Source of the DNA: Brevibacillus laterosporus LMG 15441
Lineage (GTDB): Bacteria > Bacillota > Bacilli > Brevibacillales > Brevibacillaceae
Reading direction: 5' to 3'
Assembly (NCBI RefSeq): GCF_000219535.2
Contig: NZ_CP007806.1
Coordinates: 742,501 to 806,500 of the forward strand
DNA length: 64,000 bases
Shown: positions 10,068-30,347 of the stretch, piece after piece
How the letters are laid out: the number at the start of each line of letters is the position of its first letter
Position numbering within the stretch: the first letter of the stretch is position 1
Notes under the pieces: model-generated
The model's database searches: none
Told to the model about the DNA's origin: nothing
What the model saw: only the letters and a program-made list of their open reading frames with translations
Translations under genes and position numbers: made by a program

Positions 10068-10958
10068 ATGGATATTTTACAAAGAATTGCAGAGCACCGG
10101 GCCCGTGAAGAAAAGTTAACGTGGAAAGGCACGTTTGCTGAATATCTTGAGCTTGTCCGCAAACATCCACAGATTGCTCAGACGGCTCATTCACGTGTCT
10201 ACAACATGATTAAAAGCCATGGGATTGAAGAAAATGAAGATGGTAGCAGGAGTTACAAATTTTTCGGACGTGAAATCTATGGTTTAGATCGTAGTGTTGA
10301 GCGACTGGTGGAGGAATACTTCCATTCTGCAGCAAGAAGATTGGACGTAAGAAAAAGAATTCTGTTGCTAATGGGCCCGGTCAGCGGGGGGAAATCAACA
10401 ATCGTAACGATGCTGAAGCGTGGTTTGGAGGAGTATTCCCGTACAGATGAAGGTGCAATTTATGCGCTAGAAGGATGCCCTATGCAAGAAGAACCCCTCC
10501 ACATGGTTCCGCATGAACTACGTCCTGAATTTGAGCAAGAATTTGGTGTGAAGATTGAAGGAGAGCTAACTCCTTTCAACAGAATGCGATTGGAAACAGA
10601 GTACGGTGGCCGAATAGAAGATTTCCCCGTAACACGGATTTTCTTTTCGGAGTCGAAAAGAGTGGGGATTGGTACCTTTAGCCCGTCTGATCCAAAATCG
10701 CAGGATATTGCCGATCTAACGGGGACTATCGATTTTTCTACGATTACGAAGTATGGTTCTGAATCTGATCCTCGTGCCTATCGGTTTGATGGTGAATTAA
10801 ACAAAGCGAACCGTGGTATCATGGAATTCCAAGAGATGCTGAAATGCGATGAAAAATTCCTGTGGCATTTATTATCGCTAACTCAAGAAGGTAATTTCAA
10901 AGCGGGTAGATTTGCTCTGATTTCAGCAGATGAATCGGTTATTATCTCATGGTACTAA
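10068..10958 (+). CDS. prkA: PrkA serine protein kinase, N-terminal part (interrupted by the element)
   Basis: Encodes residues 1-289 of PrkA, then seven or so foreign residues and a stop. The P-loop LLMGPVSGGKSTIVTMLKRG near residue 100 and the conserved blocks GTFSPSDPKSQDIADLTG and KCDEKFLWHLLSLTQEGNF identify it. Homology stops abruptly after RFALISADE, where PrkA should continue into ELIIAHTNE; that continuation lies 18.4 kb away at 29310. ATG 10068 follows GGAGGAG with 8-nt spacing and matches the start of other PrkA proteins. Joined halves would give 632 aa, the normal family length. In Bacillus PrkA acts in the sporulating mother cell. Confidence 0.95.
   Translation: MDILQRIAEHRAREEKLTWKGTFAEYLELVRKHPQIAQTAHSRVYNMIKSHGIEENEDGSRSYKFFGREIYGLDRSVERLVEEYFHSAARRLDVRKRILLLMGPVSGGKSTIVTMLKRGLEEYSRTDEGAIYALEGCPMQEEPLHMVPHELRPEFEQEFGVKIEGELTPFNRMRLETEYGGRIEDFPVTRIFFSESKRVGIGTFSPSDPKSQDIADLTGTIDFSTITKYGSESDPRAYRFDGELNKANRGIMEFQEMLKCDEKFLWHLLSLTQEGNFKAGRFALISADESVIISWY
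10929..10933. other. attL core GATGA
   Basis: Left junction: the prkA sequence TTTCAGCAGATGA is followed by element DNA ATCGGTTATTATC. The core is in frame as GAT GA. It is the longest string shared by the two junctions; the true crossover dinucleotide of the serine recombinase lies inside it. Confidence 0.85.
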
Positions 10959-12587
10959 AAAATCATCTTGCAGTATGTTATGCTTTAATACTGGATATAT
11001 GACATGTTTAGCTGGTTTTCTCCCCCGCCCTTTTTCAATTATTGTAATATAGGCATGGTCAAAAACAGAGCGTAGAATTTTGTTTCTCTGTGTTTTATTA
11101 GTATTGGTTTTATATGCTTCTAAAATCGAACCAATATTTTTTTTGATAATTTGAGGGTCAAATTTTTGTTCATTATTTTCTGTTGATTGGTTCTCTTTTA
11201 TATCATTTAGTTTCTCCATCTCTCTATCAATTTCCGCTTTACGTTCCAAAAACATTTCATCTGTATAGATACCATTTTCATACTTGTCATAAATAAAACT
11301 GAGTCTATTTTTTAGTTCTTTAGTTCTTTGCTCAAAATATCCAGTTAAATCTTCAATAAGATCAGCATTATTTGTTTCTTTATCCTCAGTAAGCTTTGTT
11401 GAAATTTCTTCTTTTAATAAATCGTCTTCCATGTCATGAAAGTGTCTTAGAGTTTCCAATAAATCTTCCTCAATTGCTCTGTATTTCACAAAAGTACATC
11501 CAGAGGTAGTACACCACAAAAATTCCTTGTGATAAGTGTTTATAGTCCCTGCTTTAGTTTTATAATTTTGGGTACTATACTGTCTTACCATACGTTTACC
11601 GCATTGATTACATATACACAATCCAGCAAGTTCACAAGGTGAAAAATCCATTTTTGTTCTAGGTTTGTGAGATGAGTCCTTGACTTTTTTTTGAGCAAGT
11701 TCCCATGTTTCCATATCAATAATTGCAGGGATAGCATTAGGTACTATTATGTGTTCTTCTTCAGGACGAACTACTCTTTTTCCATTAATAGTTTGATGCA
11801 CTCGGAACTTCATTGTCCCTATGTATCTTTCATTTGTTATTAGTTGTTTTAATTGCATAAAAGTCCATTCTCTTTTACCCTGTGGCGTTTTAATCGGTGT
11901 CTTCTTACTAAAATAAGTTGCAAGAGCGCGAAAACTCACATCGCGGCGTGTACCGTTTTCTTGTGGAACACCATTAACATAGTAATTAAAAATCATTCTA
12001 ACAACTGCCGCTTGTTCTTCATTTATTTCTAATTTTTTTGTTGTCTTATTGTAGTTAAAACCAAACGGAGCCGCACCAGCAACCCAACGTCCAGCCATTG
12101 CGTTATTCACACGCCCCCCGAAAAGTCGCTCCCTAGTAGTTTCAAATTCTTCCCTAGACATAAATAGTTCAAACCTAATTTGTCTTAGGTCTGAGGAATT
12201 TCGAGGGTCGTATGTTTTGTATGGAGTAATAATAAAAATACGGTTATCAACAATTAAATCATATATTATCCCCATATCTGTATATGATCCGCGCCCCATC
12301 CGTGATATCTCTTTCACAGCAATAGCCTGATACTTCTTCACTCGAAGTTCCTCAATTACATTTTGAAATACAGGTCTAGTAGAAATTTTATCTCCCGAAC
12401 CAACTTCAGCTTTTTGAGTAAAAGGAATGCCTAATGGTTCTAAAATGCGATCCATTATTTCTTTTTGTTCTTTTAGAACATCTTCACCGGTACGTCTTTC
12501 GCGTTCCTCATCTTGGCGAGATCGGCGTAAATAGTTAATTATATTTTCAATCCCAAGCTCAATTAAATACTCGCGTTTTAATGACAA
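10947..12587 (-). CDS. Large serine recombinase (skin-element type site-specific recombinase)
   Basis: A 546-aa recombinase expected to excise the element. The N-terminal resolvase domain has YLRRSRQ with nucleophile Ser23 and the later EISRMGRG block. Next come the recombinase domain (GAAPFGFNY, about residues 175-300), a zinc-ribbon with CICNQCGKRMV and a later CTTSGC, and a coiled coil near 420-490. Translation starts at TTG 12587, which sits 8 nt after AGGAGG; an overlapping ATG four nt nearer encodes only four codons. Its stop lies 13 bp from the left core, the usual place for the integrase of such elements. No frame damage is seen, unlike most phage genes here. Confidence 0.93.
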   Translation of the reverse strand: MSLKREYLIELGIENIINYLRRSRQDEERERRTGEDVLKEQKEIMDRILEPLGIPFTQKAEVGSGDKISTRPVFQNVIEELRVKKYQAIAVKEISRMGRGSYTDMGIIYDLIVDNRIFIITPYKTYDPRNSSDLRQIRFELFMSREEFETTRERLFGGRVNNAMAGRWVAGAAPFGFNYNKTTKKLEINEEQAAVVRMIFNYYVNGVPQENGTRRDVSFRALATYFSKKTPIKTPQGKREWTFMQLKQLITNERYIGTMKFRVHQTINGKRVVRPEEEHIIVPNAIPAIIDMETWELAQKKVKDSSHKPRTKMDFSPCELAGLCICNQCGKRMVRQYSTQNYKTKAGTINTYHKEFLWCTTSGCTFVKYRAIEEDLLETLRHFHDMEDDLLKEEISTKLTEDKETNNADLIEDLTGYFEQRTKELKNRLSFIYDKYENGIYTDEMFLERKAEIDREMEKLNDIKENQSTENNEQKFDPQIIKKNIGSILEAYKTNTNKTQRNKILRSVFDHAYITIIEKGRGRKPAKHVIYPVLKHNILQDDFLVP

Positions 12588-12600
12588 TTCATTTTCCTCC

Positions 12601-12658
12601 TTTTGGTTTGATCATAGTTGATTACAATCTATTATATACAAACCAAAAGAAATGTAAA
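12601..12658 (-). promoter_or_regulatory. Promoter and inverted repeat upstream of the recombinase
   Basis: On the minus strand a TTTACA -35 (12653-12658) and TATAAT -10 (12631-12636) are spaced 16 bp. A perfect 10-bp inverted repeat, TTTTGGTTTG at 12601-12610 and CAAACCAAAA at 12639-12648, has one arm in the promoter spacer and the other next to the ribosome site. This looks like an operator or a control hairpin. The -10 could also be read as a sporulation-sigma type (TATATAATA against CATANNNTA), so the sigma factor is open. Confidence 0.55.
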
Positions 12659-12737
12659 ATAAATCCGCTCCAAATAATAGTAAAAAATAGGTATAAAAAA
12701 AGCTTATAAAGCCTCTCCATTAGGTTTTAGATGGTGT

Positions 12738-12885
12738 AAATTTATATCATGAGATTTAAAGGTTAGTCGCCTGCTGGTGGCTATTTTAATTTCTTAGTAT
12801 AGAAAGTATATTGAAAAAATTACCAAAAAGCAGTTTACTTATAAACAGATCGGTGATAACATGAATTTATGGTAAATATTACCAA
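12738..12885 (+). repeat. Leader repeat, copy 1
   Basis: A ~148-bp leader upstream of the 12907 gene, almost identical to 13465-13612. It begins TTTATATCATGAG, contains the hairpin AGTCGCC-tgct-GGTGGCT followed by a U-rich tract, and ends with the palindrome GGTAAATATTACC. A hairpin of the same shape is present in copy 3, so its structure is conserved while its loop varies. An attenuator or terminator role is inferred. Confidence 0.7.
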
Positions 12886-12906
12886 ATGTAATTTGAGGTG
12901 ATTGTT

Positions 12907-13239
12907 GTGAAGAAGCTTTTAGTATCATTATCTACTTTTGCGGTATTTACTGGTGCTTTAGCTGTTCCTACTTTTGCAGCTACTGAGGTTAACACTGTAA
13001 ATGAAACAAACTCTCAAGTATTATTGGTTAAACCGGCATTTGATGTTAACAAAGGTGGAATAGTATCGCTGTATTCAGCTGGTATAGGATATTATGAGGT
13101 ATATGGTTATGGTCTAAGTGTTTATAAACAAGGCGGAACATGGTATCTATCTGCCTCACCGAATGCTCAAAGTGGGACATTATATGCATATGACACTAAC
13201 GGAAATTTTATTAGAACATATGTTGTTACTGTTCACTAG
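12907..13239 (+). CDS. Secreted small protein, family member 1
   Basis: A 110-aa protein with a clear signal peptide (KKLLVSLSTFAVFTGALAV, cleavage probably after PTFAA). The mature part is Tyr/Gly-rich and includes GGTWYLSASPNAQSGTLYAY. It is a paralogue of the 13634 gene: the leader sequences are nearly identical, the mature parts share a GTWYL core. GTG 12907 is the start, preceded by GAGGTGAT; an upstream in-frame GTG overlaps that site. The function is unknown; an exported effector or surface protein of the element is possible. Confidence 0.75.
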   Translation: MKKLLVSLSTFAVFTGALAVPTFAATEVNTVNETNSQVLLVKPAFDVNKGGIVSLYSAGIGYYEVYGYGLSVYKQGGTWYLSASPNAQSGTLYAYDTNGNFIRTYVVTVH

Positions 13240-13300
13240 TTAATATTTTTAGATAGTGGTACAATAAAATAAGTCCAAAAGAACTAAAAACCAATGAAAT

Positions 13301-13344
13301 AAATCCCGTTTCTTACTTGTTAAAAGTGGAACGGGATTTTGTTT
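13301..13344 (+). terminator. Terminator after secreted protein 1
   Basis: AAATCCCGTT pairs with AACGGGATTT across a ~20-nt partly structured loop, then T-rich sequence. Confidence 0.75.
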
Positions 13345-13410
13345 CTATATTATTTTATTGGTTAAGTGAGTTCAAAATTTGGGAAATGAGGTTACTTTTT
13401 TTGTGTTTTT

Positions 13411-13453
13411 CTTATGTACTTAATGTTTACATCATGTCGCAAGAACTCTGTTT
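13411..13453. repeat. 43-bp direct repeat, copy 1
   Basis: CTTATGTACTTAATGTTTAC and the following ATCATGTCGCAAGAACTCTG match 15469-15511 with only a few differences. The second copy lies inside the inverted-repeat block at 15469-15676, so this may be a stray half of that element. Confidence 0.65.
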
Positions 13454-13464
13454 AATATAAGGAT

Positions 13465-13612
13465 AATTTATATCATGAGATTTAAAGGTTAGTCACCTGC
13501 TGGTGGCTATTTTAATTTCTTGGTATAGAAAGTATATTGAAAAAATTACCAAAAAGCAGTTTACTTATAAACAGATCGGTGATAACATGAATTCATGGTA
13601 AATATTACCAAA
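13465..13612 (+). repeat. Leader repeat, copy 2
   Basis: A near-identical copy of 12738-12885, 726-727 bp downstream, again ending just before a GTG-started secreted-protein gene. The whole leader-plus-gene unit has therefore been duplicated in tandem. The hairpin here is AGTCACC-tgct-GGTGGCT; the A/G difference from copy 1 keeps pairing. Confidence 0.7.
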
Positions 13613-13633
13613 TAAATTTTGAGGTGATTTGTT

Positions 13634-13963
13634 GTGAAGAAACTGTTAGCATCTTTATCTACTTTCGCGGTTCTTACTGGTGCTTTAGCTGTTCCTACTT
13701 TTGCAGCTACTGAGGTTAATACAGCAAAAGAAACAAATTCTCAAGTATTAAAGATTCAACCAAATCTGAGTGTAAAACGTGACGGGAATACATCATTGTA
13801 TACTTCACCATTCACTTCTTATACGGTTGAAGGTCACGGTTTACATGTTGCGAAAATTGACGGAACATGGTATTTGTTTGCCGATCGTGATGCTAGGAAT
13901 GGAGACTTATATGAATATTACAATGGAAGCCAAATAAAAAGATTTGATGTCGTGGTAAGATAA
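13634..13963 (+). CDS. Secreted small protein, family member 2
   Basis: A 109-aa exported protein with signal peptide KKLLASLSTFAVLTGALAV and probable cleavage near PTFAA. The N-terminal ~45 residues are almost identical to member 1, while the mature C-terminal half has diverged strongly (SYTVEGHGLHVAKIDGTWYL). Start GTG 13634 follows GAGGTGATT. Such divergence after tandem duplication is what one expects of toxins, immunity proteins or other antagonistic factors, but there is no domain to prove it. Confidence 0.75.
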   Translation: MKKLLASLSTFAVLTGALAVPTFAATEVNTAKETNSQVLKIQPNLSVKRDGNTSLYTSPFTSYTVEGHGLHVAKIDGTWYLFADRDARNGDLYEYYNGSQIKRFDVVVR

Positions 13964-14023
13964 CTTAAAATTTCTGTCGACTACCTAAGATGATGACTCT
14001 ATAAGAGTAAAAAACATAAAGAT

Positions 14024-14066
14024 ATCCCGTCCCACTTCAAATAATTGTGGAACGGGATGTTTATTT
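14024..14066 (+). terminator. Terminator after secreted protein 2
   Basis: ATCCCGTCCCAC pairs with GTGGAACGGGAT (one bulge), then TTTATTTT. It corresponds to the terminator at 13301. Confidence 0.75.
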
Positions 14067-14097
14067 TAAATGATTAAATTACTTTTACTCTTTACAT

Positions 14098-14127
14098 TAA
14101 AAAAGCACCTTAGTTGGTGTTTTTTTT
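14098..14127 (+). terminator. Intrinsic terminator
   Basis: AAAAAGCACC, loop TTAGTT, then GGTGTTTTTTTT. It is one of three terminators in 230 bp; the stretch 13964-14443 holds terminators and the third leader repeat but no gene that I can see. Confidence 0.65.
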
Positions 14128-14224
14128 ATACTTATTATACAGGATGGTAGAGGCTACATGGCGGAATATTGGCGGTAGAATGGCGCTCCATTTGGAGAAT
14201 AAGGTTGTAAATAAAAGCAACGAC

Positions 14225-14253
14225 AGCTACTCGATCATTCGGGTAGCTTTTTT
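14225..14253 (+). terminator. Intrinsic terminator before leader copy 3
   Basis: AGCTACTC and GGGTAGCT pair around an ~11-nt loop and are followed by TTTTTT. Confidence 0.7.
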
Positions 14254-14255
14254 GT

Positions 14256-14310
14256 AGTAAATTTATATCATGAGATTTAAAGGTTAGTCACCTTCGGGTG
14301 GCTATTTTTT
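14256..14310 (+). repeat. Leader repeat, copy 3 (5' part only)
   Basis: GTAAATTTATATCATGAGAT and the following AAAGGTTAGTCACC match copies 1 and 2. The hairpin is AGTCACC-ttcg-GGTGGCT with a stable UUCG loop and then ATTTTTTAT. It lies right behind another terminator, so it is unlikely to exist only to end an upstream transcript. Confidence 0.65.
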
Positions 14311-14443
14311 ATATTGCTTTCAAATTAATATTCGACAATATATTGGTTTGATTGAAAAAGGTGTCGAATTTTTTACATATATTTACCTATTTTTGAATGT
14401 TATGCTTATATTGTAAAAAAAAGTCTGAAAGGATTTGAAAAAC

Positions 14444-15124
14444 ATGAAAAAAGTCTTACTTTCACTTTCGATGTTAGCTCTTTTAACAGCTATAGCAGTA
14501 CCAGCAGAAGCTTATGATAAAATTAATACTGCTGCTGAATCATCTACCGCTAAAAAAAGTATTGAAGAGAATCAAAATAAATATGTCGAAATGTTAGCAG
14601 AATATGTTATTAGAAAAGAGGATGGAACAATCTCTTTAGATCAATCGTACCATTCTGAATTATCAATCCCTGAAGAATTTGTTGATGATATTCAGAATCA
14701 TATTAATGATTTGAACATACAAGTAAAAGAGGGTAATATTGTAGTAAATAAAGACCTAAGTATCACGACCATAAAAGAGAACAAAAAAAGAAGTAATAAA
14801 GTAATGGCAATGGCAAAAGAACGTTCTCTAAAAGGCAACGTAGACATTAAAGTATATTGGTGGGGTTATGGAATGTGGCTAGATGATAGGGCTACTAGAG
14901 ATATGATACGCCAACATAAAGCAGGAGTCGCATTTGCTACGTTATTAGCCATGATAAATGTCATTTTGGACTATCCTGATTCAAAATCAGTTACTTTTGT
15001 TTCATCTTTAATAGCCTGGTTTCTCCAAACTACTGTTAATAAAATAGAAGAAGCAAATGAAGGTAATGGGGTTTTGATTACTACTACAAATCTAACTTTT
15101 GGTTTTGTAGTTGAACCGCTATAA
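14444..15124 (+). CDS. Secreted protein with hydrophobic C-terminal segment
   Basis: A 226-aa protein with a signal peptide (KKVLLSLSMLALLTAIAV, cleavage near AEA). Charged helical sequence covers residues ~30-125. KVYWWGYGMWLDDRATRDMI follows near 140, then a hydrophobic stretch around GVAFATLLAMINVIL and a C-terminal part rich in T and F. Start ATG 14444 is chosen; a TTG three codons earlier overlaps the AAGGATT ribosome site. The leader and signal-peptide style match the two genes upstream. The function is unknown; the late hydrophobic segment would fit a membrane-active exported protein. Confidence 0.7.
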   Translation: MKKVLLSLSMLALLTAIAVPAEAYDKINTAAESSTAKKSIEENQNKYVEMLAEYVIRKEDGTISLDQSYHSELSIPEEFVDDIQNHINDLNIQVKEGNIVVNKDLSITTIKENKKRSNKVMAMAKERSLKGNVDIKVYWWGYGMWLDDRATRDMIRQHKAGVAFATLLAMINVILDYPDSKSVTFVSSLIAWFLQTTVNKIEEANEGNGVLITTTNLTFGFVVEPL

Positions 15125-15182
15125 TAATACTTTATAGATGTTAAGTTTGCAGAGACAGAGGTGAGTCAGCATAGATAAGAAA

Positions 15183-15440
15183 ATGCCACCTAGCAAAACA
15201 GATCGGTTTAAAAAAGTTTGGTTTTATATCCAATTAGTTATTGCAATTTTTGTTACAATTTATTTGTTTGTCCATTTAGATGACGAAGATACTGGAAAGA
15301 CATACATAGCTATGTTAATCTTACTAGGCCTTAATGCATTAGCTCTTTTACTTAAAAGGCAATTTTTTCTATTTGCCATTTATCTGTGTTTAATATTATA
15401 CAGTAATAAAAAATGGCTTAGTGCGATATTGTTTGGCTGA
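15183..15440 (+). CDS. Small membrane protein, 85 aa
   Basis: Two to three hydrophobic segments (WFYIQLVIAIFVTIYLFV, YIAMLILLGLNALALLL, FFLFAIYLCLILY). The only in-frame ATG is at 15183, while the nearest good ribosome site (GAGGTGAG, 15158) fits a short GTG frame that stops after five codons, so initiation may be by reinitiation. Placed 58 bp behind the exported protein at 14444, it could be its immunity or partner protein; this is a guess from position and topology. Confidence 0.5.
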   Translation: MPPSKTDRFKKVWFYIQLVIAIFVTIYLFVHLDDEDTGKTYIAMLILLGLNALALLLKRQFFLFAIYLCLILYSNKKWLSAILFG

Positions 15441-15443
15441 GAT

Positions 15444-15470
15444 TAAGCACCCAATGTGGTGCTTTTTTCT
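15444..15470 (+). terminator. Terminator after the 85-aa membrane protein
   Basis: AAGCACC, loop CAATGT, GGTGCTTTTTTC. Confidence 0.8.
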
Positions 15471-15676
15471 TTTGTACTTATTGTTTACATCATGTCGCAA
15501 TAACTCTGTTTGAACTGTAGTTTCTGTAACATTAATAGGGGTTTTTGTTTACAATAACTAATTTAGCGGAAATGGGTATTTTAACCAGTTGAGTTTCTGT
15601 AAGCAATAACCTTCATTTCTGTAACAGTAACCCTAGTTTCTGCTGCATGATGTATGCAATAAGTACACAAAAGAAA
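15469..15676. repeat. Inverted-repeat block with iteron-like TTTCTGTAA repeats
   Basis: The ends are inverted copies of each other: TTTTGTACTTATTG...ATCATG at 15470-15495 and CATGAT...CAATAAGTACACAAAAG at about 15649-15676. Inside, TTTCTGTAA or a close variant occurs at 15521, 15594, 15616 and 15637; the last three are 21-22 bp apart, two turns of the helix. No gene is present. This could be a protein-binding array (replication or repression) or a small mobile-element remnant. Confidence 0.55.
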
Positions 15677-15740
15677 AGAAATAAATATATATAGGTCATG
15701 TTGATAGATATTTTCTCTACTAAACAAGGAGGATGAAACA

Positions 15741-16100
15741 ATGCCTAGCAAACCATTAAAGACGTGTTTACATTCCAGATGTCCAACACTAACAAGAAAA
15801 GCTTATTGCCCTTTGCATCAAAAGAAACAAGTCCAGTAGTATGATAGGGAACGTGGATCATCTACGCAACGTGGCTATGATGCCAAGTGGAGAAAAGCAA
15901 GAGTAGGATTTTTAAGAAAGCACCCACTCTGCAAACATTGCTTTGATAAAGGCTTACTAATTGGTGCTACAGTAGTTGATCATATCGTTCCACACAAGGG
16001 AGATAAGACGCTGTTTTGGGATCGGAACAACTGGCAGCCATTATGTGAGCAGTGTCATAACCGGAAGACCGCTAAAGAAGATAGAGGCTCTTGGAGATGA
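15741..16100 (+). pseudogene. Phage HNH endonuclease, premature stop
   Basis: A 119-codon frame with a good AAGGAGG site and the phage HNH nuclease pattern: QRGYDAKWRKARVGFLRKHP, two zinc-type cysteine pairs, DHIVPHKGD and NWQPLCEQCHNRKT. Codon 33 (15837-15839) is TAG where the frame otherwise continues perfectly into YDRERGSSTQRG. Such nucleases normally sit beside the terminase and help packaging. The single nonsense change suggests recent loss. Confidence 0.8.
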
Positions 16101-16310
16101 GGCTTTAAAAAGATTCAACCACCGACAAAGGATAGACGGTGGTTAAAAAGTGGTAAAAGATTGGGATTACAAGCTCATTGGTTCTGGAACTGCGGCTACA
16201 GCATTTCCATAATTTATTAGATGAATAAAAATAGAAAATGACTGGGTGGATTAATTGATTCATATGAATCATTTTCACGGAATTTTTTTCGTTAATTTAA
16301 AGCATGTTTG

Positions 16311-17645: not shown

Positions 17646-18173
17646 ATGGCTAGACCAAGGCAACCAGTTGACTTGCTGCTCTACAAGGGAAAGAAAAACC
17701 TAACAAAAGCTGAAATAGAACAGCGTAAAGCCCAAGAAATAAAGGCGGCAAATGATAAAGTAAAGCCCCCTAACTACCTACCGAAAGACCTGAAAAAAGA
17801 ATTTAAAAAGATTGCAAGCGAGCTACTGCAAATCGGCATCATGACTAATCTTGATGTAGATGCACTGGCTCGCTTTTTATATGCCCGAAAGATGTATATA
17901 AAAGTCACAGATGCTTTACTAGAAACGGAATTGACAGTACAGCGCAAACAAGCAATTCATGATGAAGACGGGGCTGTAATTGACATGAACGAATGGGAGG
18001 AAGCAAACGCAGCTTATTCAGATTTATTGATTAACCAAGATAAATTATTTAAGCAATGTAGATCAGCAGCAAGTGATCTGGGCCTTACTATTGCCTCTCG
18101 TTGCAAGCTTGTAATACCAAAGCAGGAGAAGCAGGAGCCTAGCGAGGTCGAAAAGGCATTCGGTGATTTATGA
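17646..18173 (+). CDS. Phage terminase small subunit, P27 family
   Basis: A 175-aa protein that recognises phage DNA for packaging. The N-terminal MARPRQPVDLLLYKGKKNLT, the PPNYLPKDLKKEFKKIASEL block and the C-terminal SDLGLTIASRCKL are typical of the family. AAAGGGGGTGAGGGA precedes ATG. It overlaps the large subunit by 4 bp (ATGA). It appears intact, though its partner is not. Confidence 0.88.
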   Translation: MARPRQPVDLLLYKGKKNLTKAEIEQRKAQEIKAANDKVKPPNYLPKDLKKEFKKIASELLQIGIMTNLDVDALARFLYARKMYIKVTDALLETELTVQRKQAIHDEDGAVIDMNEWEEANAAYSDLLINQDKLFKQCRSAASDLGLTIASRCKLVIPKQEKQEPSEVEKAFGDL

Positions 18174-19857
18174 TTAAACAATATCTAATTGACTACAGTC
18201 TTGATATCGTAGCTGGTGAGATAGTTGCTTGTGAGAAGCACAAATGGGCGTGTAGCCGTTTCCTTGATGATATCAAGAACGAGGGGACGGAACATTTTCC
18301 TTATATTTTTGATGAGGAAAAAGCACATCGTTTTTTATATTGGATGTCTTTATTTCGGCACACAAAAGGGAAACTTGCTGGTAAACGAATAACCCCTCAT
18401 GAAATCCAGGTATTTGTCTTTGGGAACATTTATGGATGGGTGCATAAGGATACAGGTCTACGGCGTTTTCGCAAAGCATATTGGCAGGTAGGTAGGAAAA
18501 ATGCTAAATCGCAATCCTTGGGGGCTGTAGCGAGCTATGAAGCCTCTGCTTTCGGTGAAAACATGTCAGAGGTTTATATCGGAGCTACCAAAGCCGAGCA
18601 AAGTAAAATTGTTTGGAATGAATCACGAACGCAAATTGATGGTTGCCCCGATCTAAAAGGTAAGTTCAAAGTAGCATACGGAAAAATTCAGCATATCAAA
18701 AGTGAATCTTTTATCGCTGCTCTATCAAAAGATGCAGGAAAAACGGGTGACGGTTTTAACGTACAAGCTGGCATCATTGATGAGTATCACGCCCACCCTA
18801 CTTCCGAAATTTATGACGTGCTTGTGTCGGGTATGGGCGCACGTAGTCAACCGTTAATGATGATTATTACAACAGCAGGATTCAACCTGCACCACCCTTG
18901 CTATAGTGTGGAATATAAGTATATTTCGAATATCCTTGATCCTCATTCATCCATAGAAAATGAGGAATATTTCGTAATGGTCAACGAGCTTGACAAGGAC
19001 GATGATATCAAGGACGAATCTGTCTGGATAAAAGCCAACCCGATCTTATGTTCATATGACGAGGGTATGGCTTATTTGCGTGGCGAGCTTAAAACTGCTT
19101 TAGACGTACCGGAGAAGATGCGAAACTACTTAACCAAAAATATGAATCGGTGGGTAGATCAGAAAGAAAACGGGTATATGTCACTGGAGGCTTGGGCCAA
19201 ATGTGGCGTTGATGAAATGCCTAATCTTGCCCAATTTGAATGTATTGTTGGTATTGACCTGTCTAAAAAAATTGACTTAACCAGTGTGTCATTTGAATTT
19301 GATTTAAAAAATGATCACATTGCTATATTAAATCATTCCTTTATACCTGAGGATACGTTAGCAGTAAAACGAAAAACAGATAGGTTCCCCTATGATCTAT
19401 ATATCCAGCAAGGATGGGTGACGGCTACTCCTGGGGCTGTTGTGGATTACACGTTTATTAAGGCGTATATTCAGCGCATGGAGCGCGAAAAGGAATGGAA
19501 AATCAAGGAGATTTGTTACGATCCATACAATGCAACTCAATTCGCTGTTGATATGGAAGCAGAAGGCTATACCATGATTGAAATTAGGCAAGGGGTTCGT
19601 ACTCTATCAGAGCCGAAGAATTTCAGAGAAATGGTCTTAGAAAAGAAGGTTCTACATGACAAGAAACCTGTCCTGGAATGGTCAATCGGAAACGCAGTTA
19701 CCAAGATGGATGCCCAGGAAAATATTATGCTGGACAAGTCTAAGTCTACGGAATCGGCCCGATAGCGTCAGCGATAAACGCACATGTAAGGGTAATGTGT
19801 AGAGACCCGAAAGCGGATTTAAACGCCCATATCTTATCGGGTAATTTCAGTTTCTAA
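18170..19857 (+). pseudogene. Phage terminase large subunit, frameshifted near the 3' end
   Basis: The ATPase/nuclease motor of DNA packaging. It has a Walker-A-like WQVGRKNAKSQSLGAV, Walker B AGIIDEYHAH, and the nuclease region VGIDLSKKIDLT and CYDPYNATQF. After MLDKSKST the frame runs into ESAR and TAG at 19763-19765. The family ending (PIASAINAHVRVM, through HILSGNFSF) continues in another frame to TAA at 19857. A small deletion near 19750-19760 therefore truncates the protein by about 33 residues. Confidence 0.8.
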
Positions 19858-22827: not shown

Positions 22828-22863
22828 ACATAATGTTTTTTAGTTAAGATTAAAAGAGGACTG

Positions 22864-23052: not shown

Positions 23053-23069
23053 TATATCTCCTTTCTGTT

Positions 23070-23582: not shown

Positions 23583-23750
23583 AAAGTATAACCTCTTTTC
23601 CTAATATTATCAATAAAGGGATATTTTTACATTAAGACCTACAAACATTCCTTATTCTCGATCAATATAATTGCCTATAAGGAATAGCTGAACCACGGCT
23701 TTATTTTGTTATACAAAGTTTTCCGTACAGCTTATTCACATGTAAGATAA

Positions 23751-23945: not shown

Positions 23946-24119
23946 CTGTCAACTCCTTTCTTTGAATATTTCTTCTTTTCTATCCTCCTTTCTTCTGGCA
24001 TCCACAAAAATATAAAAATAATGTAATCAACCTAAATTTTATATGGATTACCATTTGTTGGGTTGATTATATATTAAGATAAACAAATTTCCTAAAAAAA
24101 TTTTTATTTAATTTTTTTC

Positions 24120-24146
24120 AAAAAAAAAAGAGGTATCCCTCTTAAC
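24120..24146 (-). terminator. Terminator of the receptor-propeptide transcript
   Basis: On the minus strand AAGAGG, loop GATA, CCTCTT runs into ten T residues. It lies ~50 bp after the propeptide stop. Confidence 0.75.
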
Positions 24147-24196
24147 AAAATGGATGATTTTCCAAAATGTAGATCAATTTATTAAGTTTAACGACA

Positions 24197-24334
24197 TTAC
24201 CAACCTTCTCCATAAATGAAAGTTGTAGAAAGGCTTTGTTCATTATGTGTTGCTGACAAAGCTGTTTCCGAGTTGATTCCGATAAAACCTAATAAGGACA
24301 GAGTCACCAGTGATAAAATCCATGTTTTCTTCAT
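24197..24334 (-). CDS. Exported signalling propeptide (Phr/NprX/AimP-like)
   Basis: A 45-aa frame starting inside the 3' end of the receptor gene (92-bp overlap, different frame). AGGGGG sits ten nt before ATG 24334. Residues 1-28 are a Sec-type signal peptide: KKTW, then a hydrophobic core ILSLVTLSLLGFIGI and ALSA as probable cleavage site. The exported tail is THNEQSLSTTFIYGEGW. Size, export signal, position right after the receptor and shared terminator match propeptides of RRNPP quorum-sensing pairs; their mature signal is usually the last 5-10 residues, here perhaps within TTFIYGEGW. The exact mature peptide is not knowable from sequence. Confidence 0.75.
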   Translation of the reverse strand: MKKTWILSLVTLSLLGFIGINSETALSATHNEQSLSTTFIYGEGW

Positions 24335-25616
24335 ATTGATTATTCCCCCTTGTCATAATGGTAACGAACTCTTCTTTCTGTTCTTCTGACGGATCGTTTT
24401 GGTAATGGAGCAGAATAAGGCTGCGTAATCGTTCTACATTTTTAAACATAAGTGCTAATTGGATGGCTTCCAAATTATACTTGAATCCCTTATCCTTTTC
24501 TCCCTTAATAAAATAATATGCGGAAAGAGCTTGAAATAGCTTTAATTTATGTCTTTTAATAAGTATATGCGTTTTGCTACATATTTCCATAATTTCTTTT
24601 TCAAATGAACATAATAATTCCCCGATGTTTTGTAGCATGTCTTTTTGAAGATATGTTTCTATTGCTACAGGTAAAAAAACACATAATTTATTTAAATCAC
24701 AGGCAATTAGCTTTATATGTTCCTCAATGTATTCAACATGGCCCATTTCAATCAGGAGCAACGTTTCATTGATTTTCGCTAGCTCTTCATACTCATTACC
24801 ATAAGTAGCATATTCCTTTATAACATGAAGTGCAGTTTTATAATCTTTCAAGCCTTCATAGCTAGCAACTTCATATAGCAAAGCTTCTGTAATATATTTT
24901 TTTTCGTTTTCAGAAGTAGCTAATTCTTTTAATTCTTTTGCATACTTTAATAGCTTATCCCATTTTTCTACGACATTATAGAATGTCAATATTTTATAAT
25001 AAGCATCAAATTTATATTCCTGTGGGAGCAATGGAAGATATTCTAGGAGTTGATACAACGTTTCATACCCAGAGACAGTAATGTCTACATCTCTTGCTAT
25101 GATAAATCGTCTAAAATAAGCAATGGCTAGTTGTTCGTTACGTGTCGAACTGTTATTAATCACAATGTCATATAGCGGTAGACTGTAATTTCGTTGTTCA
25201 GATAAAAAAATATGTTCTGCCATTTTAAATGTATTATCAACAAGTCTTTTTCTGTCTGTGTCCTCGTTGATAAAATCCATAATTTTTTTTGTAATATCGT
25301 ACCTTTCGGCCTTGATGCAACCTATAAAAAATTCAGCCGTTTTAACAGGTGATAGTTTCCCAGTTTCGTTAAAACATTCACCTAAAAAACATTCGTAGAA
25401 AGTATCCATCTGTATTTGTAAAGCCCTTGTAATTGTTTCTAATTGAGGTAATGTCATTCTTCGCCTGTTATTCATTAATTGGCTTATTGTGGCAGAATCC
25501 ATACCGGTAGCTTGTACAAGGTCTTTTTGTTTCCACCCTTTACTATCAAGTGATTCTTGCAAGCGTTGACGTAATTCAATTTGTGCTACTTGATGATTGT
25601 ATTCAAAGGCGTACAT
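24243..25616 (-). CDS. RRNPP-type peptide-responsive transcriptional regulator
   Basis: A 457-aa protein with an N-terminal XRE helix-turn-helix (residues ~12-70: GWKQKDLVQATGMDSATISQ, then LMNNRRRMTLPQLETITRAL). About 370 residues of helical TPR-like repeats follow, the architecture of PlcR, NprR and AimR. Such receptors bind a re-imported peptide in the repeat domain and change DNA binding. AAGGGGGAT precedes ATG. The overlapping propeptide gene at 24334 supports the call. In prophages this type of pair controls lysis-lysogeny; here it might tune excision, cargo expression or the host. The target is unknown. Confidence 0.82.
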   Translation of the reverse strand: MYAFEYNHQVAQIELRQRLQESLDSKGWKQKDLVQATGMDSATISQLMNNRRRMTLPQLETITRALQIQMDTFYECFLGECFNETGKLSPVKTAEFFIGCIKAERYDITKKIMDFINEDTDRKRLVDNTFKMAEHIFLSEQRNYSLPLYDIVINNSSTRNEQLAIAYFRRFIIARDVDITVSGYETLYQLLEYLPLLPQEYKFDAYYKILTFYNVVEKWDKLLKYAKELKELATSENEKKYITEALLYEVASYEGLKDYKTALHVIKEYATYGNEYEELAKINETLLLIEMGHVEYIEEHIKLIACDLNKLCVFLPVAIETYLQKDMLQNIGELLCSFEKEIMEICSKTHILIKRHKLKLFQALSAYYFIKGEKDKGFKYNLEAIQLALMFKNVERLRSLILLHYQNDPSEEQKEEFVTIMTRGNNQYEENMDFITGDSVLIRFYRNQLGNSFVSNT

Positions 25617-25765
25617 TAAACCTATCCCCCTTTTTTATTTGGAAAAATAAGTAAAAATATTCCATTACATCATACTTTAATTAGATAATATTGTAAATAA
25701 AAATAAAAGTATAAGAGTATTATTTTTAAAAATATTAAGTTCTATATGTTCCTAGCTACAAAAAA

Positions 25766-25808
25766 ATAAAACACCTTCAATTCCGTAAAAGGTTGAAAGG
25801 TGTTTTAT
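25766..25808. terminator. Inverted repeat, possible bidirectional terminator
   Basis: ATAAAACACCTTCAA and TTGAAAGGTGTTTTAT pair with one bulged base around a 12-nt loop. It stands in the 375-bp region between divergent genes (25616 leftward, 25993 rightward), so it may be a leftover terminator of a deleted gene. Confidence 0.5.
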
Positions 25809-25896
25809 ATGTTCATTGTATAGAGCTTGTAGGATGTCAATTTATAAGCTGTTCTCCTTGCTTAATATATTTCTGATGTTAATATTTTATTTATTA

Positions 25897-25931
25897 AAAC
25901 AAGAACGATCGTTCTTGTTTTATGTTATAAT
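25897..25931 (+). promoter_or_regulatory. LexA-box-like palindrome with extended -10 promoter
   Basis: A perfect 26-bp palindrome at 25897-25922 has the centre AAGAACGATCGTTCTT, which contains GAAC-N4-GTTC, the core of Gram-positive LexA (DinR) operators. Just downstream TGTTATAAT at 25923-25931 is an extended -10 element. It would drive the small frame at 25993. SOS control is inferred from the match only; the flanking bases differ from the classical CGAAC...GTTCG. Confidence 0.5.
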
Positions 25932-25992
25932 AGTTTAACAAGATTTAACAACTATGAAAAAACATAAAGTAAATAGGATGGTGGATTGATTA

Positions 25993-26175
25993 ATGATACG
26001 TGATCGCGTGATTGTAGATATAGACAAATTAGCTAATGTAATAAAAATCAATTTACGGAATGTGATAAATGATGTTACACCCAATATTAATGGTACTGAC
26101 GATCAACACGGAGAAAAGCAATTAACTTTTTCCATTCCTTCTCAGACAACTCCTGACCATCCAAAACTACTTTAA
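25993..26175 (+). CDS. Small phage frame, probably truncated
   Basis: A 60-codon frame behind the LexA-like promoter. The N-terminal 30 residues (MIRDRVIVDIDKLANVIKIN) look like a genuine small phage protein. From about residue 34 on it overlaps the 3' end of the minus-strand regulator and reads as shadow sequence, so the original C-terminus is probably lost. Function unknown. Confidence 0.4.
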   Translation: MIRDRVIVDIDKLANVIKINLRNVINDVTPNINGTDDQHGEKQLTFSIPSQTTPDHPKLL

Positions 26176-26614
26176 ACTGTTTTAGTAATTCTTCGTCTGC
26201 TAGATCAATATTTGCTAAGAACCCTTTTTCGTCTTTATACGGATCAGGGTTCTCTTTTTTTTGTGCTTCTTCTGCTTCTTCAGCAGGAGAAGGAATCCAG
26301 TCATATAGATTAATATCTGTCTTACATAAAAGGTAATCAGTCGTGCAATTTAAAACCTCTGCAAGTGCAACGATTATATCCCAAGGTGGCACAGCTCTAC
26401 CTGTTTCATAGTTAGATATGCTAACCCGATCAACCCCAACTCTTTCTGCTAAATGTGATTGGTATAATCCAGCCTCTGTTCTTTTTTCTTTGATTCTTTC
26501 ACCGATTCTTTTTTTTAGATCAGTATTTTCGCTGTTTCCTTGTACCTTATCAAAAAAAGATGCGGTTGCTATAGCTGTCGAGGAAATGTTCGGATATAGC
26601 CATCCTAGTGACAA
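26087..26614 (-). CDS. XRE-family repressor-like protein with foreign N-terminus
   Basis: A helix-turn-helix regulator, like phage cI/Xre repressors: LKKRIGERIKEKRTEAGLYQ, HLAERVGVDRVSISNYETGR, then a family-typical ALAEVLNCTTDYLL. Homology begins at about residue 33 (26518). The first ~30 residues are read from antisense of the RuvC remnant, and no start codon lies close to the homology start. The gene therefore lost its own 5' end in a rearrangement, leaving a 175-aa chimeric frame by chance. Whether it is expressed is unclear. Confidence 0.6.
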   Translation of the reverse strand: MSLGWLYPNISSTAIATASFFDKVQGNSENTDLKKRIGERIKEKRTEAGLYQSHLAERVGVDRVSISNYETGRAVPPWDIIVALAEVLNCTTDYLLCKTDINLYDWIPSPAEEAEEAQKKENPDPYKDEKGFLANIDLADEELLKQFKVVLDGQELSEKEWKKLIAFLRVDRQYH

Positions 26615-26708
26615 CGTTATTGACGCTTATGTGTTAGCTAGAATTGCTCTACATCAATATCGGGAGTCTGTAAGAAAGTACAAACTACGCCTTTTAAATA
26701 AAAAATAA
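26553..26708 (+). pseudogene. 3' remnant of a phage RuvC-like Holliday junction resolvase
   Basis: The plus strand reads KKDAVAIAVEEMFGYSHPSD, NVIDAYVLARIALHQYRES, then KLRLLNKK and a stop at 26708. It resembles the C-terminal catalytic helix region of phage RuvC-type resolvases (DAYVLA with a catalytic Asp). The N-terminal two thirds are missing, cut at the junction with the antisense regulator near 26530-26553. Confidence 0.6.
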
Positions 26709-26731
26709 ACTAACTAAGGAGAGAACGATCT

Positions 26732-27142
26732 ATGAAAACATTAGTTAAAGCTACCTTCCTTGATTTTAATGCAGGTTCAAAAAAGGACATTTTGAAATTT
26801 GAAATTAAAGGCGATCTGACAGACGCACAAATAGTCAGCTTGCATAAATTGAAAGGCAATATTGTGTTCCTGGATATTTCAAGCGACCAACTCGATATTT
26901 ACGATTACGACAGTGAGCCAAAGGTACATGAAGGCATTTGGTACAACGTAGATACGGGAGGAAACGTTGAGGTAACGGAAGAGCAATTGACCATTGAAAA
27001 CGTTCCTACACCAGTTGAAGAGTTTAACAAGGCAAAAGAAGCTCATGACAATGAAGAAAAGGAACCGCTAGAAGAGATGAAACAAGAAGAATCTAACGTA
27101 GATTCCACAAATAATGAAAATGACGATGACTTACCATTCTAA
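26732..27142 (+). CDS. Phage replication-region protein with SSB-like acidic tail
   Basis: A 136-aa protein with AAGGAGAG before ATG. An N-terminal ~80-residue beta-rich domain (VKATFLDFNAGSKKDILKFE) is followed by a Glu/Asn-rich linker and a C-terminal NENDDDLPF. DDDLPF is the signature tip by which single-stranded-DNA-binding proteins recruit partners. The N-terminal domain is not an obvious OB fold to me. It may bind the same host partners as SSB during phage recombination or replication. Confidence 0.6.
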   Translation: MKTLVKATFLDFNAGSKKDILKFEIKGDLTDAQIVSLHKLKGNIVFLDISSDQLDIYDYDSEPKVHEGIWYNVDTGGNVEVTEEQLTIENVPTPVEEFNKAKEAHDNEEKEPLEEMKQEESNVDSTNNENDDDLPF

Positions 27143-27208
27143 ATTGTTCCTGGCCCCTGTTAGCAGCAGGGGCAAAATCTTTCAATCCAAGCATTAAGGG
27201 GAGATATG

Positions 27209-27665
27209 ATGCAGATGAGCTTTTTTGCAGAAATAGACCAGAAAGAAACTCATAGGGCTGTAGAGTCTGCATTTGAACAATATCGGTTAAATAAATATTT
27301 GATGTTTGAAGAGCGAGAAGCAAATACCACAGCAGGATATACAGAAAGGTTTCATGGGCCAACGAATGTAACCAGTGACCAAACAGCTTCTATAGCAATA
27401 CACCATGTTGATACTATGAACGCAAGAAAGACCTATTGTAGTTTGATGGAACGAGCAGGTAAATAACTTGCCGCGCAAGGAACGTTTTTTAATAGAAGAA
27501 AGGTACATGTGTAGAGAAGCTGAGTATATCACTGACTACAATGTATATAATTTTAAGTTTGACCCCCCTATTAGTAAGGACACCTATAGAAAAATTCGAA
27601 AGAAAGCATTTCGCAAACTAGCTATGGTATTAAATATCCAAGTCGAAAAAAGTTCTTCATTATAG
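27209..27665 (+). pseudogene. ArpU-family phage late-gene regulator, frameshifted
   Basis: The family pattern is complete: SFFAEIDQKETHRAVESAFE, FEEREANTTAGYTERFHGPT, then NVTSDQTASIAI, and after the break LPRKERFLIEERYM and FDPPISKDTYRKIRKKAF. The break is one extra G at about 27459-27460: GCAGGTAAATAACTTG instead of GCAGTAAATAACTTG, which creates a stop at 27464. Two ATGs (27206, 27209) follow AAGGGGAG. Loss of this activator would silence late genes. Confidence 0.8.
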
Positions 27666-27725
27666 GGGTTAAGTTAAGATGGCGATTTGAATAAGATATA
27701 CAACTAGAAAAAAAGGGGGAGTTAG

Positions 27726-27929
27726 ATGCATACTGTTAAATCAGTAAATCCGCCAGTTATAAAAAATCTCGATGAACAGGTTACGCTATGGATTGATGGC
27801 AAACATGGCAGGATTGGTGTTATAGCTCCTAAAAAAAGACCAACACGAGAAGAATGGGTTCAACTACACAGAGAAATAGCAAGTATCTTGGTTGAATCAG
27901 CCAAAATAAAAAAAGAGGCCTCCCATTAG
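27726..27929 (+). CDS. Small phage protein, 67 aa
   Basis: A complete short frame with AAAGGGGGAG before ATG. A mid-protein TLWIDGKHGRIGVIAPKKRP is followed by a helix (REEWVQLHREIASILVESAK). Function unknown. Its stop codon is part of the 4-bp target duplication of the IS, and its terminator is split by that IS. It is the gene nearest the right end of the element. Confidence 0.6.
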   Translation: MHTVKSVNPPVIKNLDEQVTLWIDGKHGRIGVIAPKKRPTREEWVQLHREIASILVESAKIKKEASH

Positions 27930-27930
27930 G
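27908..27930 (+). terminator. Left arm of a terminator split by the IS
   Basis: AAAAAAGAGGCCTCCCAT here and TAGGAGCCTCTTCTTTTTT at 29230-29248 would form one hairpin if the IS were absent: GAGGCCTCC against GGAGCCTC with one bulge, then T-run. The IS landed in the loop. Confidence 0.65.
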
Positions 27931-28002
27931 TGATATTATCCCCTTTTAGTAGACAGTAAGAAGCAAGACCCCTTACTGTATTAACTAGGAGGGGAATTTT
28001 TT

Positions 28003-28311
28003 ATGGGGAAAATTAGAAAAACATATTCAAAGAATTTTAAGCTAAAAGCCGTACAGCTTTATTTGAGCGGTGAACAAGGGTACAAAACACTTACAAGGGA
28101 TCTCGGCATTAGTGACCCTTCTATTTTAAGAAGATGGGTTGATCATTATAGAAAGGAAGGTATACAGGGACTAGATGAAAAACGCGGGAGAACAAAAAAT
28201 CCTCTTAGAGGAAGACCACGAACAAGGCCAGAGAGTACGGAGGAAGAGATAGTTCGATTACGTGCAGAGAACGAATTCTTAAAAAAGTGGCTAGGTCTAG
28301 AAAAGAGGTGA
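28003..28311 (+). CDS. IS3-family transposase OrfA
   Basis: A 102-aa helix-turn-helix protein: KNFKLKAVQLYLSGEQGYKT and ISDPSILRRWVDHYRKEG, ending with a leucine-zipper-like ENEFLKKWLGLEK. TTAAAAAAGTGG near the 3' end offers an A6G slippery site for -1 frameshifting into orfB, which overlaps by 25 bp. Confidence 0.88.
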   Translation: MGKIRKTYSKNFKLKAVQLYLSGEQGYKTLTRDLGISDPSILRRWVDHYRKEGIQGLDEKRGRTKNPLRGRPRTRPESTEEEIVRLRAENEFLKKWLGLEKR

Positions 28312-29186
28312 AACCGAAAGATAAACGCTGTTTTTTCGAGCTTATTAAAGAATTGTCTAAAAAGTATTCTATTACTTTATTGTGTAAAATTACGAAAGTA
28401 TCTCGTAGTGGTTTTTACAAGTGGCTTTCTCATGAGAAACACCCCACCTCAAAACAATTGGTAAATGAAAAATTAAGAGGAATGATCATGGAGTGTTATC
28501 AAGAGGTCAAAGGCATTTACGGGTATCCCCGAATAAAAGTGTGGTTATTTAGAAGGTACGGACTAAAAGTCAATCATAAACGTGTGTATCGCATCATGAA
28601 GGAACTTGGGATACAAGCGCTAATCCGTAAAAAACGAAAATTCTTTGGGCGCAAAGAGAAGGTTGTTATCTCCGAAAACAAGCTGAATCGAAATTTTTAC
28701 GCCTCACGGCCAAATGAGAAATGGGCTACAGATATTACCTACATACTATTTAATGGTCGCCGTCTTTATCTGTCGGTCATATACGACATGTATAACAACG
28801 AAGTTGTTGCCTACAAAACAAGCAAACGTAATGATTTACAGCTTGTAATGGATACCGTAAAATTAGCGCTTAAAAAGCGGGATGTAAACGGAGTCCTCCT
28901 ACACAGTGATCAAGGATATCAGTACACCTCAAAGCAGTATAACCAGTTCCTTCAGAAATATAAAATCGTAGCAAGTATGTCTAGAAAAGGTAACTGTTTA
29001 GATAACGCCTGTATTGAGGGATTCTTTGGGCATTTAAAAACAGAGTGTTTGTATCTTCATTCGTTTCAAACAGATAAAGAAGTGGAAGAAGCTCTCCACG
29101 GTTACATTAATTTCTATAATCAGCAACGGTTTCAATCTCGATTAAAAAACCTGAGTCCGATAGAATACCGAACTCAGGCTGCCTAG
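28287..29186 (+). CDS. IS3-family transposase OrfB (DDE catalytic part)
   Basis: A 299-aa protein with HTH_21 and rve integrase core. The catalytic triad is visible: Asp in NEKWATDITYI, Asp in LLHSDQGYQYT, Glu in NACIEGFFGHLKTE. Normally produced as an OrfAB fusion by frameshifting. The C-terminal FYNQQRFQSRLKNLSPIEY is typical. Confidence 0.9.
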   Translation: MARSRKEVKPKDKRCFFELIKELSKKYSITLLCKITKVSRSGFYKWLSHEKHPTSKQLVNEKLRGMIMECYQEVKGIYGYPRIKVWLFRRYGLKVNHKRVYRIMKELGIQALIRKKRKFFGRKEKVVISENKLNRNFYASRPNEKWATDITYILFNGRRLYLSVIYDMYNNEVVAYKTSKRNDLQLVMDTVKLALKKRDVNGVLLHSDQGYQYTSKQYNQFLQKYKIVASMSRKGNCLDNACIEGFFGHLKTECLYLHSFQTDKEVEEALHGYINFYNQQRFQSRLKNLSPIEYRTQAA

Positions 29187-29309
29187 ATGGGGCTTGTTTA
29201 AAGTTGTCTACTTGACAGGGGTAAGATCATAGGAGCCTCTTCTTTTTTATTTCTTATCAGAAATGCGGTAACTATCCCCCTCCCCTTTTAGGTATATGAA
29301 GTTATAATT

Positions 29310-29314
29310 GATGA
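29310..29314. other. attR core GATGA
   Basis: Right junction: element DNA GAAGTTATAATT, then GATGA, then prkA sequence GCTGATAATTGCTCAC. In frame it reads GAT GAG CTG. The frame is open leftwards to a TAG at 29289, so the prkA 3' half has no start codon of its own here. Confidence 0.85.
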
Positions 29315-30347
29315 GCTGATAATTGCTCACACAAACGAAACGGAATACAAATCCTTTATCGGAAATAAAAAGAATGAAGCATTACAGTCTCGAATGATTG
29401 TTATGCCAGTACCGTATAATCTTCGCGTGAAAGAAGAAGAGAAAATTTATGATAAATTAATTAAACAATCTGATTTAGGTCATGTTCATATTGCCCCACA
29501 TGCGTTATATACAGCGGCCATTTTTTCCATTTTAACTCGTTTAAAAGAGTCCAAAAAACAAGGTGCCGATCTTTTAAAAAAATTGCGTTTGTACAATGGA
29601 GAATCCGTTGAGGGTTTCAAAGGATCAGATATCGAGGATTTACGGAATGAGTATACAGATGAAGGAATGTTTGGGATTGATCCTCGTTATGTCATTAATA
29701 GGATCTCCAGTGCACTCATACGCCGTGATACGGAATCTATAAATGCTTTGGATATTTTGCGGGCGTTAAAAGAAGGACTCGATCAGCATGCTTCCATCAG
29801 TAAGGAACAGCGAGAGCGTTATTTAAATTTCATCTCAATTGCGCGTAAAGAGTATGATGAAATTGCAAAAAAAGAAGTCCAGAAGGCATTTGTATACAGC
29901 TATGAGGAATCAGCGAAAACGATGATGGATAATTACTTGGATAATGTTGAGGCGTATTGCAATTCTAACCGATTGCGTGATCCAGTAACAGGTGAGGAAT
30001 TGGAAGCGGATGAGCGCCTCATGAGATCTATTGAAGAGCAAATCGGTATTTCTGAAAATGCCAAGCGTGCATTTCGTGAAGAGATTCTTATTCGGATATC
30101 AGCTTTTGCGCGTAAAGGAAAGCGGTTTGACTACAACACACATGATCGTCTACGTGAAGCAATTGAGAAAAAATTATTTGCAGATTTAAAAGATGTGGTC
30201 AAAATAACAACCTCCACAAAAACGCCAGATGAGCACCAATTGAAAAAAATCAATGAGGTAACACGTCGTTTAGTAGAAGAACACGGATATACGCCAATTT
30301 CAGCAAATGAACTGCTGCGTTACGTAGGTAGTTTGCTGAATCGATAG
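29310..30347 (+). CDS. prkA: PrkA serine protein kinase, C-terminal part (interrupted by the element)
   Basis: Encodes residues 288-632 of Prk[61 protein letters not shown] and the kinase-like C-terminal region. No start codon or ribosome site lies at the junction, so it should be translated only after excision joins it to the 10068 half. An internal ATG at 29394 has no good site. The frame is intact throughout, which indicates that selection still maintains it. It is followed 11 bp later by yhbH. Confidence 0.95.

Follow-up and report, generated by a model that had tools for sequence, protein, structure and literature searches.

Intervening elements in sporulation genes are already known as a kind, and the literature names sigK, spsM, spoVFB, spoVR, gerE, kamA and yabG as interrupted genes. 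Among the described systems, skin in sigK of B. subtilis and C. difficile is a defective, prophage-like element with a serine recombinase whose excision restores the mother-cell gene exactly, and SPbeta, which carries the SprA/SprB pair, splits the mother-cell sporulation gene spsM of B. subtilis (PMC4191935, PMC8270828). Here we describe an 18.4-kb element that splits prkA in Brevibacillus laterosporus LMG 15441, within a stretch of 64,000 nucleotides of contig NZ_CP007806.1 (positions 742,501 to 806,500; hereafter the window, whose own numbering is used throughout). The best reading, and one that we hold to be probable, is that this is an intervening element of the skin/SPbeta kind that would be excised from prkA in the mother cell; that its excision is developmental is what we infer from the DNA sequence.

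In B. subtilis, prkA is reported to be controlled by SigE, and its deletion to lower sporulation (PMC4837961, PMC13001217). Because prkA is also reported to raise SigK production (PMC4837961), excision at prkA would gate an earlier step. In the literature searched, whose scope did not extend to subscription papers, supplements or Abe et al. 2013, we found no report of prkA as the target of an intervening element; the available part of PMC4605624 deals with prkA in Thermus and with no insertion.

The prkA gene of the window lies in two halves, with codons 1-288 ending at 10931, codons 289-632 starting at 29313, and an insert of 18,381 bp between two GA dinucleotides. Compared with intact homologues, the gene is colinear for 288 codons from 10068, breaks at GCA-GAT/GA (the slash marking the break) and resumes as GAT/GA-GCTG at 29313. 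The left junction reads GCAGATGAATCGG from 10926 and the right junction ATTGATGAGCTGAT from 29307, so that GATGA is present in both in equal codon phase, and joining the halves yields a single frame of 632 codons plus stop. An earlier, sequence-only reading of this stretch had given the same positions for the end and resumption of PrkA homology, the same shared GATGA and the same 632-codon frame, and the comparison with homologues agrees with it on each count. The Pfam domain AAA_PrkA is divided likewise, with model positions 2-278 in the left half and 271-356 in the right half. A profile search of the genome (5.15 Mb, 3 contigs) retrieved the C-terminal PrkA domain once; for AAA_PrkA, no matches but those to the two halves passed the cut-off, and one further match at another place in the genome scored below it. 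The intact second prkA that the sequence-only reading had named as the finding that would overturn it was sought in the genome and not found, leaving a split coding gene that has no other copy there and regains its full frame on joining.

Exact restoration alone is no proof of developmental use, since conservative insertion by a serine recombinase always restores exactly. With exact restoration being mechanical for this enzyme class, the informative point is instead that both prkA halves and the recombinases stay open.

In 4 of the 4 other genomes of the genus, prkA is unbroken and 88-99% identical to the rejoined protein. We scanned a class sample of 398 genomes, with prkA in 262, and a sample of 104 genomes from the family of Paenibacillus sp. 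J31TS4 (G005), with prkA in 103, G005 itself having been found through its recombinase. A prkA gene split at the GA of codon 289 was present in 13 genomes, namely 8 of 262 in the class sample, window included (G000, G010, G242, G243, G290, G310, G369 and G424), and 5 of 103 in the J31TS4 family (G005, G053, G059, G107 and G124). The class sample held nine weaker prkA matches (best E ~1e-96 to 1e-102, with all others at 2.3e-128 or better), and the ninth of these genomes, G464, is not a codon-289 split. Six prkA matches were weak in the J31TS4 family: those of the five splits and that of G062 (L143), where no insertion but a frameshift near codon 113-119, either genuine or due to a sequencing error, breaks the gene. 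With prkA whole in the congeners and split at one dinucleotide in 12 genomes besides that of the window, the split is not a matter of chance. The halves total 631-632 codons, uninterrupted by any stop, in 13 of 13 split genomes, the apparent prkA stops in G005, G107, G242 and G369 sitting beyond the junction. With both halves on one contig in 9 of the 13 genomes, element size ranges from 2.2 to ~65 kb; the halves of G053, G059, G107 and G369 lie on separate contigs, and their continuity is deduced.

As the sequence-only reading had stated, a large serine recombinase ends 13 bp inside the left junction (open reading frame (ORF) 10947-12587, minus strand), and the element therefore encodes its own site-specific recombinase beside an attachment (att) site. 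Its Pfam Resolvase and Recombinase domains score above the cut-off and a zinc-ribbon match just below it; its closest relative in the phage collection is YokA/SprA of the SPbeta group (43% identity), and in the PDB it matches YokA and a YokA-YotN chain best. The closest named relative (70%), from Paenibacillus sp. J31TS4, adjoins a prkA half broken off at the identical codon, with the second half 43,653 bp away. In 10 of the 13 genomes, no more than ~140 bp separate the left prkA half from a related recombinase; in G243 and G290 that recombinase lies within the element but closer to its right end, and in G369 it lies ~2.1 kb in. The sequence-only reading had suggested that spore-formers be searched both for uninterrupted prkA and for the same recombinase beside prkA, and had put prkA forward as the target of the element; unbroken genes and related recombinases at split ones were both found. 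Its target, recombinase type, sites and exact restoration are all borne out, and comparative evidence beyond the reach of that reading makes the skin/SPbeta kind the best interpretation. The recombinase tree, in which G464 and G369 sit on long branches and the G369 record has two or more recombinase matches, requires 3 label changes and is also compatible with a single origin, and we make no claim of convergent retargeting. That a misassembly joined an unrelated prophage to prkA is hardly credible: nothing found speaks for it, the two prkA halves are correctly ordered with the recombinase at an att site, and prkA is split at this place in 12 other genomes.

Serine integrases use a non-palindromic central dinucleotide. 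Among the left and right junctions of the split genomes, only GA, positions 1-2 of codon 289, agrees within every pair, and because the base before GA differs between the two ends in G107, G124 and G242, the crossover is narrowed to GA. Symmetry of attP around the central dinucleotide has been stated (PMC5595907), and the deduced phage arms form inverted repeats around GA with p<=0.0025 in 11 of 13 genomes (mononucleotide shuffles), the symmetry being weak in G290 (p=0.0145). A host-arm control gave p>=0.166 in 12 of 12 tested, with a misplaced core in G310 and with G053 and three IMG/VR sites lying outside the control. The att sites are thus of the serine-integrase type, with a central dinucleotide and symmetric attP arms, and attP is found joined in relatives.

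These joined sites came from a scan of IMG/VR with the J31TS4 recombinase, which gave 17 loci. In five, the 5' half of prkA lies beside the recombinase (among them the G107 sequence and, once more, the prophage record G040). Three have the other phage end instead, in the arrangement int-P'-GA-P with a small ORF of 57-76 aa. One of the remaining loci has an IS200-like ORF, named by eye, and one is without the recombinase end; in 7 of the 17, too little sequence follows the recombinase, a few dozen bases at most, for a judgement. The three joined attP sites have symmetric arms (p=0.0006, 0.0054 and 0.0002), and we read the contigs that carry them as circular or packaged forms. Locus L135, in prkA, and L136, with a joined attP, are 84% identical over 5.6 kb and diverge at the core.

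The family of this small ORF shares the pattern G-K-H-G...P..PT.EE...L...A. By BLAST, the 67-aa ORF of the window has matches just inside attR in G124 (3e-14), G107 (1e-8) and G005 (2e-4), and ORFs at the equivalent place in G059, G242 and G010 are linked to the family by alignment only. In all, small att-side genes are present in 7 elements, and none was found in G369. The window ORF has no PHROG, phage-collection or single-sequence PDB match, and its profile hits are unconvincing; the comparison with phage records took in this ORF and the recombinase. By its position and conservation, we regard it as a candidate recombination directionality factor (RDF; gene, rdf).

At the lower end of the size range, four elements at the codon-289 site measure 2,215 bp (G243), 3,076 bp (G290), 3,948 bp (G310) and 6,172 bp (G424); their recombinase ORFs span 527-557 aa, and the prkA halves are open in all four. 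Non-phage genes are carried by three of them, for a thioredoxin-reductase-like protein, for an M29 peptidase and for a gerA-type germinant receptor; this last is a set of three genes, seen as an operon at L104:3835-7809 inside the 6.2-kb element. These mini-elements are too small for phage yet keep recombinase, att arms and prkA halves, which fits expectation if rejoining matters. An equivalent argument has been made for small intervening elements in PMC6957869.

It is unlikely, in our judgment, that the locus is the scar of a prophage, with prkA dead, gene and element decaying together, and no developmental excision. Such decay would agree with the broken phage genes of the window element. 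Against IMG/VR record G040, which carries a nearly identical element (~96% over 9.3 kb), 20 ORFs are matched, 15 of them at 96-100% identity, and the terminase large subunit, portal and lysozyme are reduced or split in the window. The recombinase, the candidate RDF and both prkA halves are nevertheless open, and the prkA halves are fully open in 13 of 13 split genomes, the four mini-elements included. Between the window and G004, the ratio of nonsynonymous to synonymous rates (dN/dS) of prkA is 0.024 in the left half and 0.049 in the right half, and the window branch carries ~7 nonsynonymous and 24.5 synonymous changes, where ~88 nonsynonymous changes would be expected without constraint. A late insertion on the window branch would hide relaxation, however, so that this constraint lends support without deciding the matter. 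Dating the insertion through G040 was tried and dropped, as its prkA fragment differs by one synonymous change and by codon 141 at the break, which is too little.

Several results weigh against excision in the mother cell, and two of them would suit a scar. The G004 branch has 2 nonsynonymous and 32.5 synonymous changes, so the window branch has a slight nonsynonymous excess (7 vs 2, Fisher p=0.07). In G040, prkA upstream of codon ~140 is replaced by other prophage-like DNA, with the first ~140 codons lost or moved, which points to a second element at that place or, failing that, to a broken gene in this strain. The exact attP pattern of the window element had 0 matches in IMG/VR, and no excision joint or circle was seen. 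Arm symmetry is absent in G369 (p=0.49), and in the window an IS3 element separates the candidate rdf from attR. The candidate RDF is colinear with SprB in alignment, not significantly so (hhalign probability 2.7% and 1.5%), and its single-sequence AlphaFold model, a strand-strand-helix fold with a poor mean predicted local distance difference test score (pLDDT 60.7), retrieved 0 matches at E<=0.001 from the PDB with Foldseek, and we base no claim about structure on it. A scan for SigE-type promoters upstream of prkA, int and rdf found no window sites above shuffles; over 21 regions of 12 genomes, two reached p=0.047 and none was lower, and as the scan also missed prkA itself, its power is poor.

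A less likely alternative still is that the element is only an active lysogen that would leave prkA on phage induction under stress, with no sporulation control and prkA merely a good attB, which strikes us as improbable. The 43,653-bp element of J31TS4 has genes for terminase, portal, head protease and major head protein, and the joined attP in three IMG/VR contigs points the same way. In the window element, however, Pfam or PHROGs scans of 25 ORFs turned up no capsid or tail family, and the size of the mini-elements leaves no room for a phage; induction would therefore bring no gain, yet the mini-elements keep full-length recombinase ORFs. Moreover, SPbeta, whose recombinase is the closest characterised one, uses both stress and mother-cell routes (PMC6957869, PMC8270828).

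Under excision in the mother cell, a SprA-type recombinase would once have integrated a prophage at the GA of prkA codon 289, and the 18.4-kb decayed prophage would now persist as a gene-intervening element. When a cell sporulates, the RDF would be made in the mother cell, the recombinase would recombine attL with attR, and the circle would be lost. The rejoined prkA would then be readable in the mother cell, probably together with yhbH behind it: as the yhbH ORF begins 8 bp after the prkA stop, yhbH probably belongs to the prkA operon, and the element would then separate it from the promoter of prkA. The forespore chromosome would retain the element and so pass it on through the spore.

The features of the locus are listed in Table 1. 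Within the element, two similar small proteins with signal-peptide-like starts are encoded at 12898-13239 and 13634-13963, and the stretch around 12898-13963 has a repeat content unlike that of G040.

Table 1. Features of the split prkA locus (positions in the window).
Feature	Position	Strand	Remark
prkA 5' part, codons 1-288	10068..10931	+	frame continues to stop at 10958 within element
attL core GA, codon 289 positions 1-2, inferred crossover	10932..10933	+	common to attL and attR across genomes
P' arm of deduced attP	10934..10963	+	inverted-repeat partner of 29283-29312; p=0.001 vs shuffles
Large serine recombinase, 546 aa	10947..12587	-	ends 13 bp inside left GA
Phage terminase small subunit	17646..18173	+	
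Phage terminase large subunit	18170..19765	+	C-terminus shorter: 531 aa vs 564 in relative G040
Portal protein fragment, 89 aa	20972..21241	+	183 aa in G040, 406 in J31TS4 prophage
GH25 lysozyme as two ORFs, 173 + 68 aa	21284..22057	+	single 257-aa ORF in G040
Helix-turn-helix (HTH) regulator, long C-terminal part	24243..25616	-	
Cro/CI-type HTH regulator	26087..26614	-	
ArpU-type phage regulator as two ORFs	27206..27665	+	single 161-aa ORF in J31TS4
Candidate recombination directionality factor, 67 aa	27726..27929	+	relatives just inside attR or beside attP
IS3-family transposase genes	28003..29186	+	between candidate rdf and attR
P arm of deduced attP	29283..29312	+	
attR core GA	29313..29314	+	
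prkA 3' part, codons 289-632 + stop	29313..30347	+	
yhbH	30356..31519	+	TIGR02877; ORF start 8 bp past prkA stop

Elsewhere in prkA, the gene of G464 breaks at the codon ~140/141 place as that of G040 does, and the first ~141 codons could not be located in the G464 assembly. The breaks in G040 (L056, ~16851) and G464 (L111) have a similar sequence, TGCA[CT]GGGGAACC, which is possibly a second att site in prkA. G464 (L111/L117) also has a second interruption near codon 510, of ~2.8 kb, with another serine recombinase and an FlhB-C-like ORF. We offer tentatively, as the less probable side of an open choice, that genome rearrangement in the mother cells of Bacilli has a recurrent hub in prkA, where divergent recombinases share the GA of codon 289, codons ~140 and ~510 may serve other elements, and some elements have ceased to be phages and carry ordinary or spore genes. 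If so, the mother cell would lose such cargo, and only the spore line would retain it.

Away from prkA, related SprA-type recombinases have other neighbours: in 4 genomes (L048, L049, L050 and L051) a C-terminal piece of a trypsin-like (HtrA-like) protease, in 1 genome (L075) a truncated Clp-protease-like gene, which we take to be TepA-like, and in 2 genomes (L076 and L077) an SpsM-like polysaccharide-synthesis gene. These loci are possible further split genes.

Among known systems, the window element resembles SPbeta in having a 43% identical recombinase that adjoins an att site; SPBc2 has its rdf, for SprB, beside the other att site, in a place equivalent to that of the candidate rdf of the window. 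SPbeta, in contrast, is ~134 kb, active and in spsM, and the window element is not a large SPbeta-type phage genome (Spbetavirus) but 18.4 kb of decayed DNA with terminase and portal remnants, whose small gene is not detectably homologous to SprB. It differs from skin in its target gene and in being known from sequence, where excision has been shown for skin, and the likeness between them is one of description. The product of spoVR works beside prkA-yhbH. In Geobacillus thermoglucosidasius C56-YS93, vrin interrupts spoVR, a mother-cell sporulation gene (PMC4191935; likened by description). The mini-elements find their parallel in gin, a non-phage element in gerE of B. cereus ATCC10987 with a serine recombinase, a directionality factor and att sites with a 27-bp imperfect inverted repeat (PMC5595907), although gin is 28.6 kb, lies in another gene and has had its rearrangement shown experimentally. 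Likened again by description, yin in yabG (C. botulinum) and phi3T in kamA (B. subtilis) also split sporulation genes and carry their own recombinase; their targets differ, and their excision has been observed. Beside these systems, the prkA element is an added case with a recurrent target. As far as our searches reach, what is new is the target gene and, across 13 genomes, its repeated use at a single dinucleotide, together with the attP, the candidate RDF family and the cargo-bearing mini-elements. One codon hit in 13 genomes by elements of 2.2 to ~65 kb offers a test of whether elements of the skin/SPbeta kind stay developmental switches after the phage has died.

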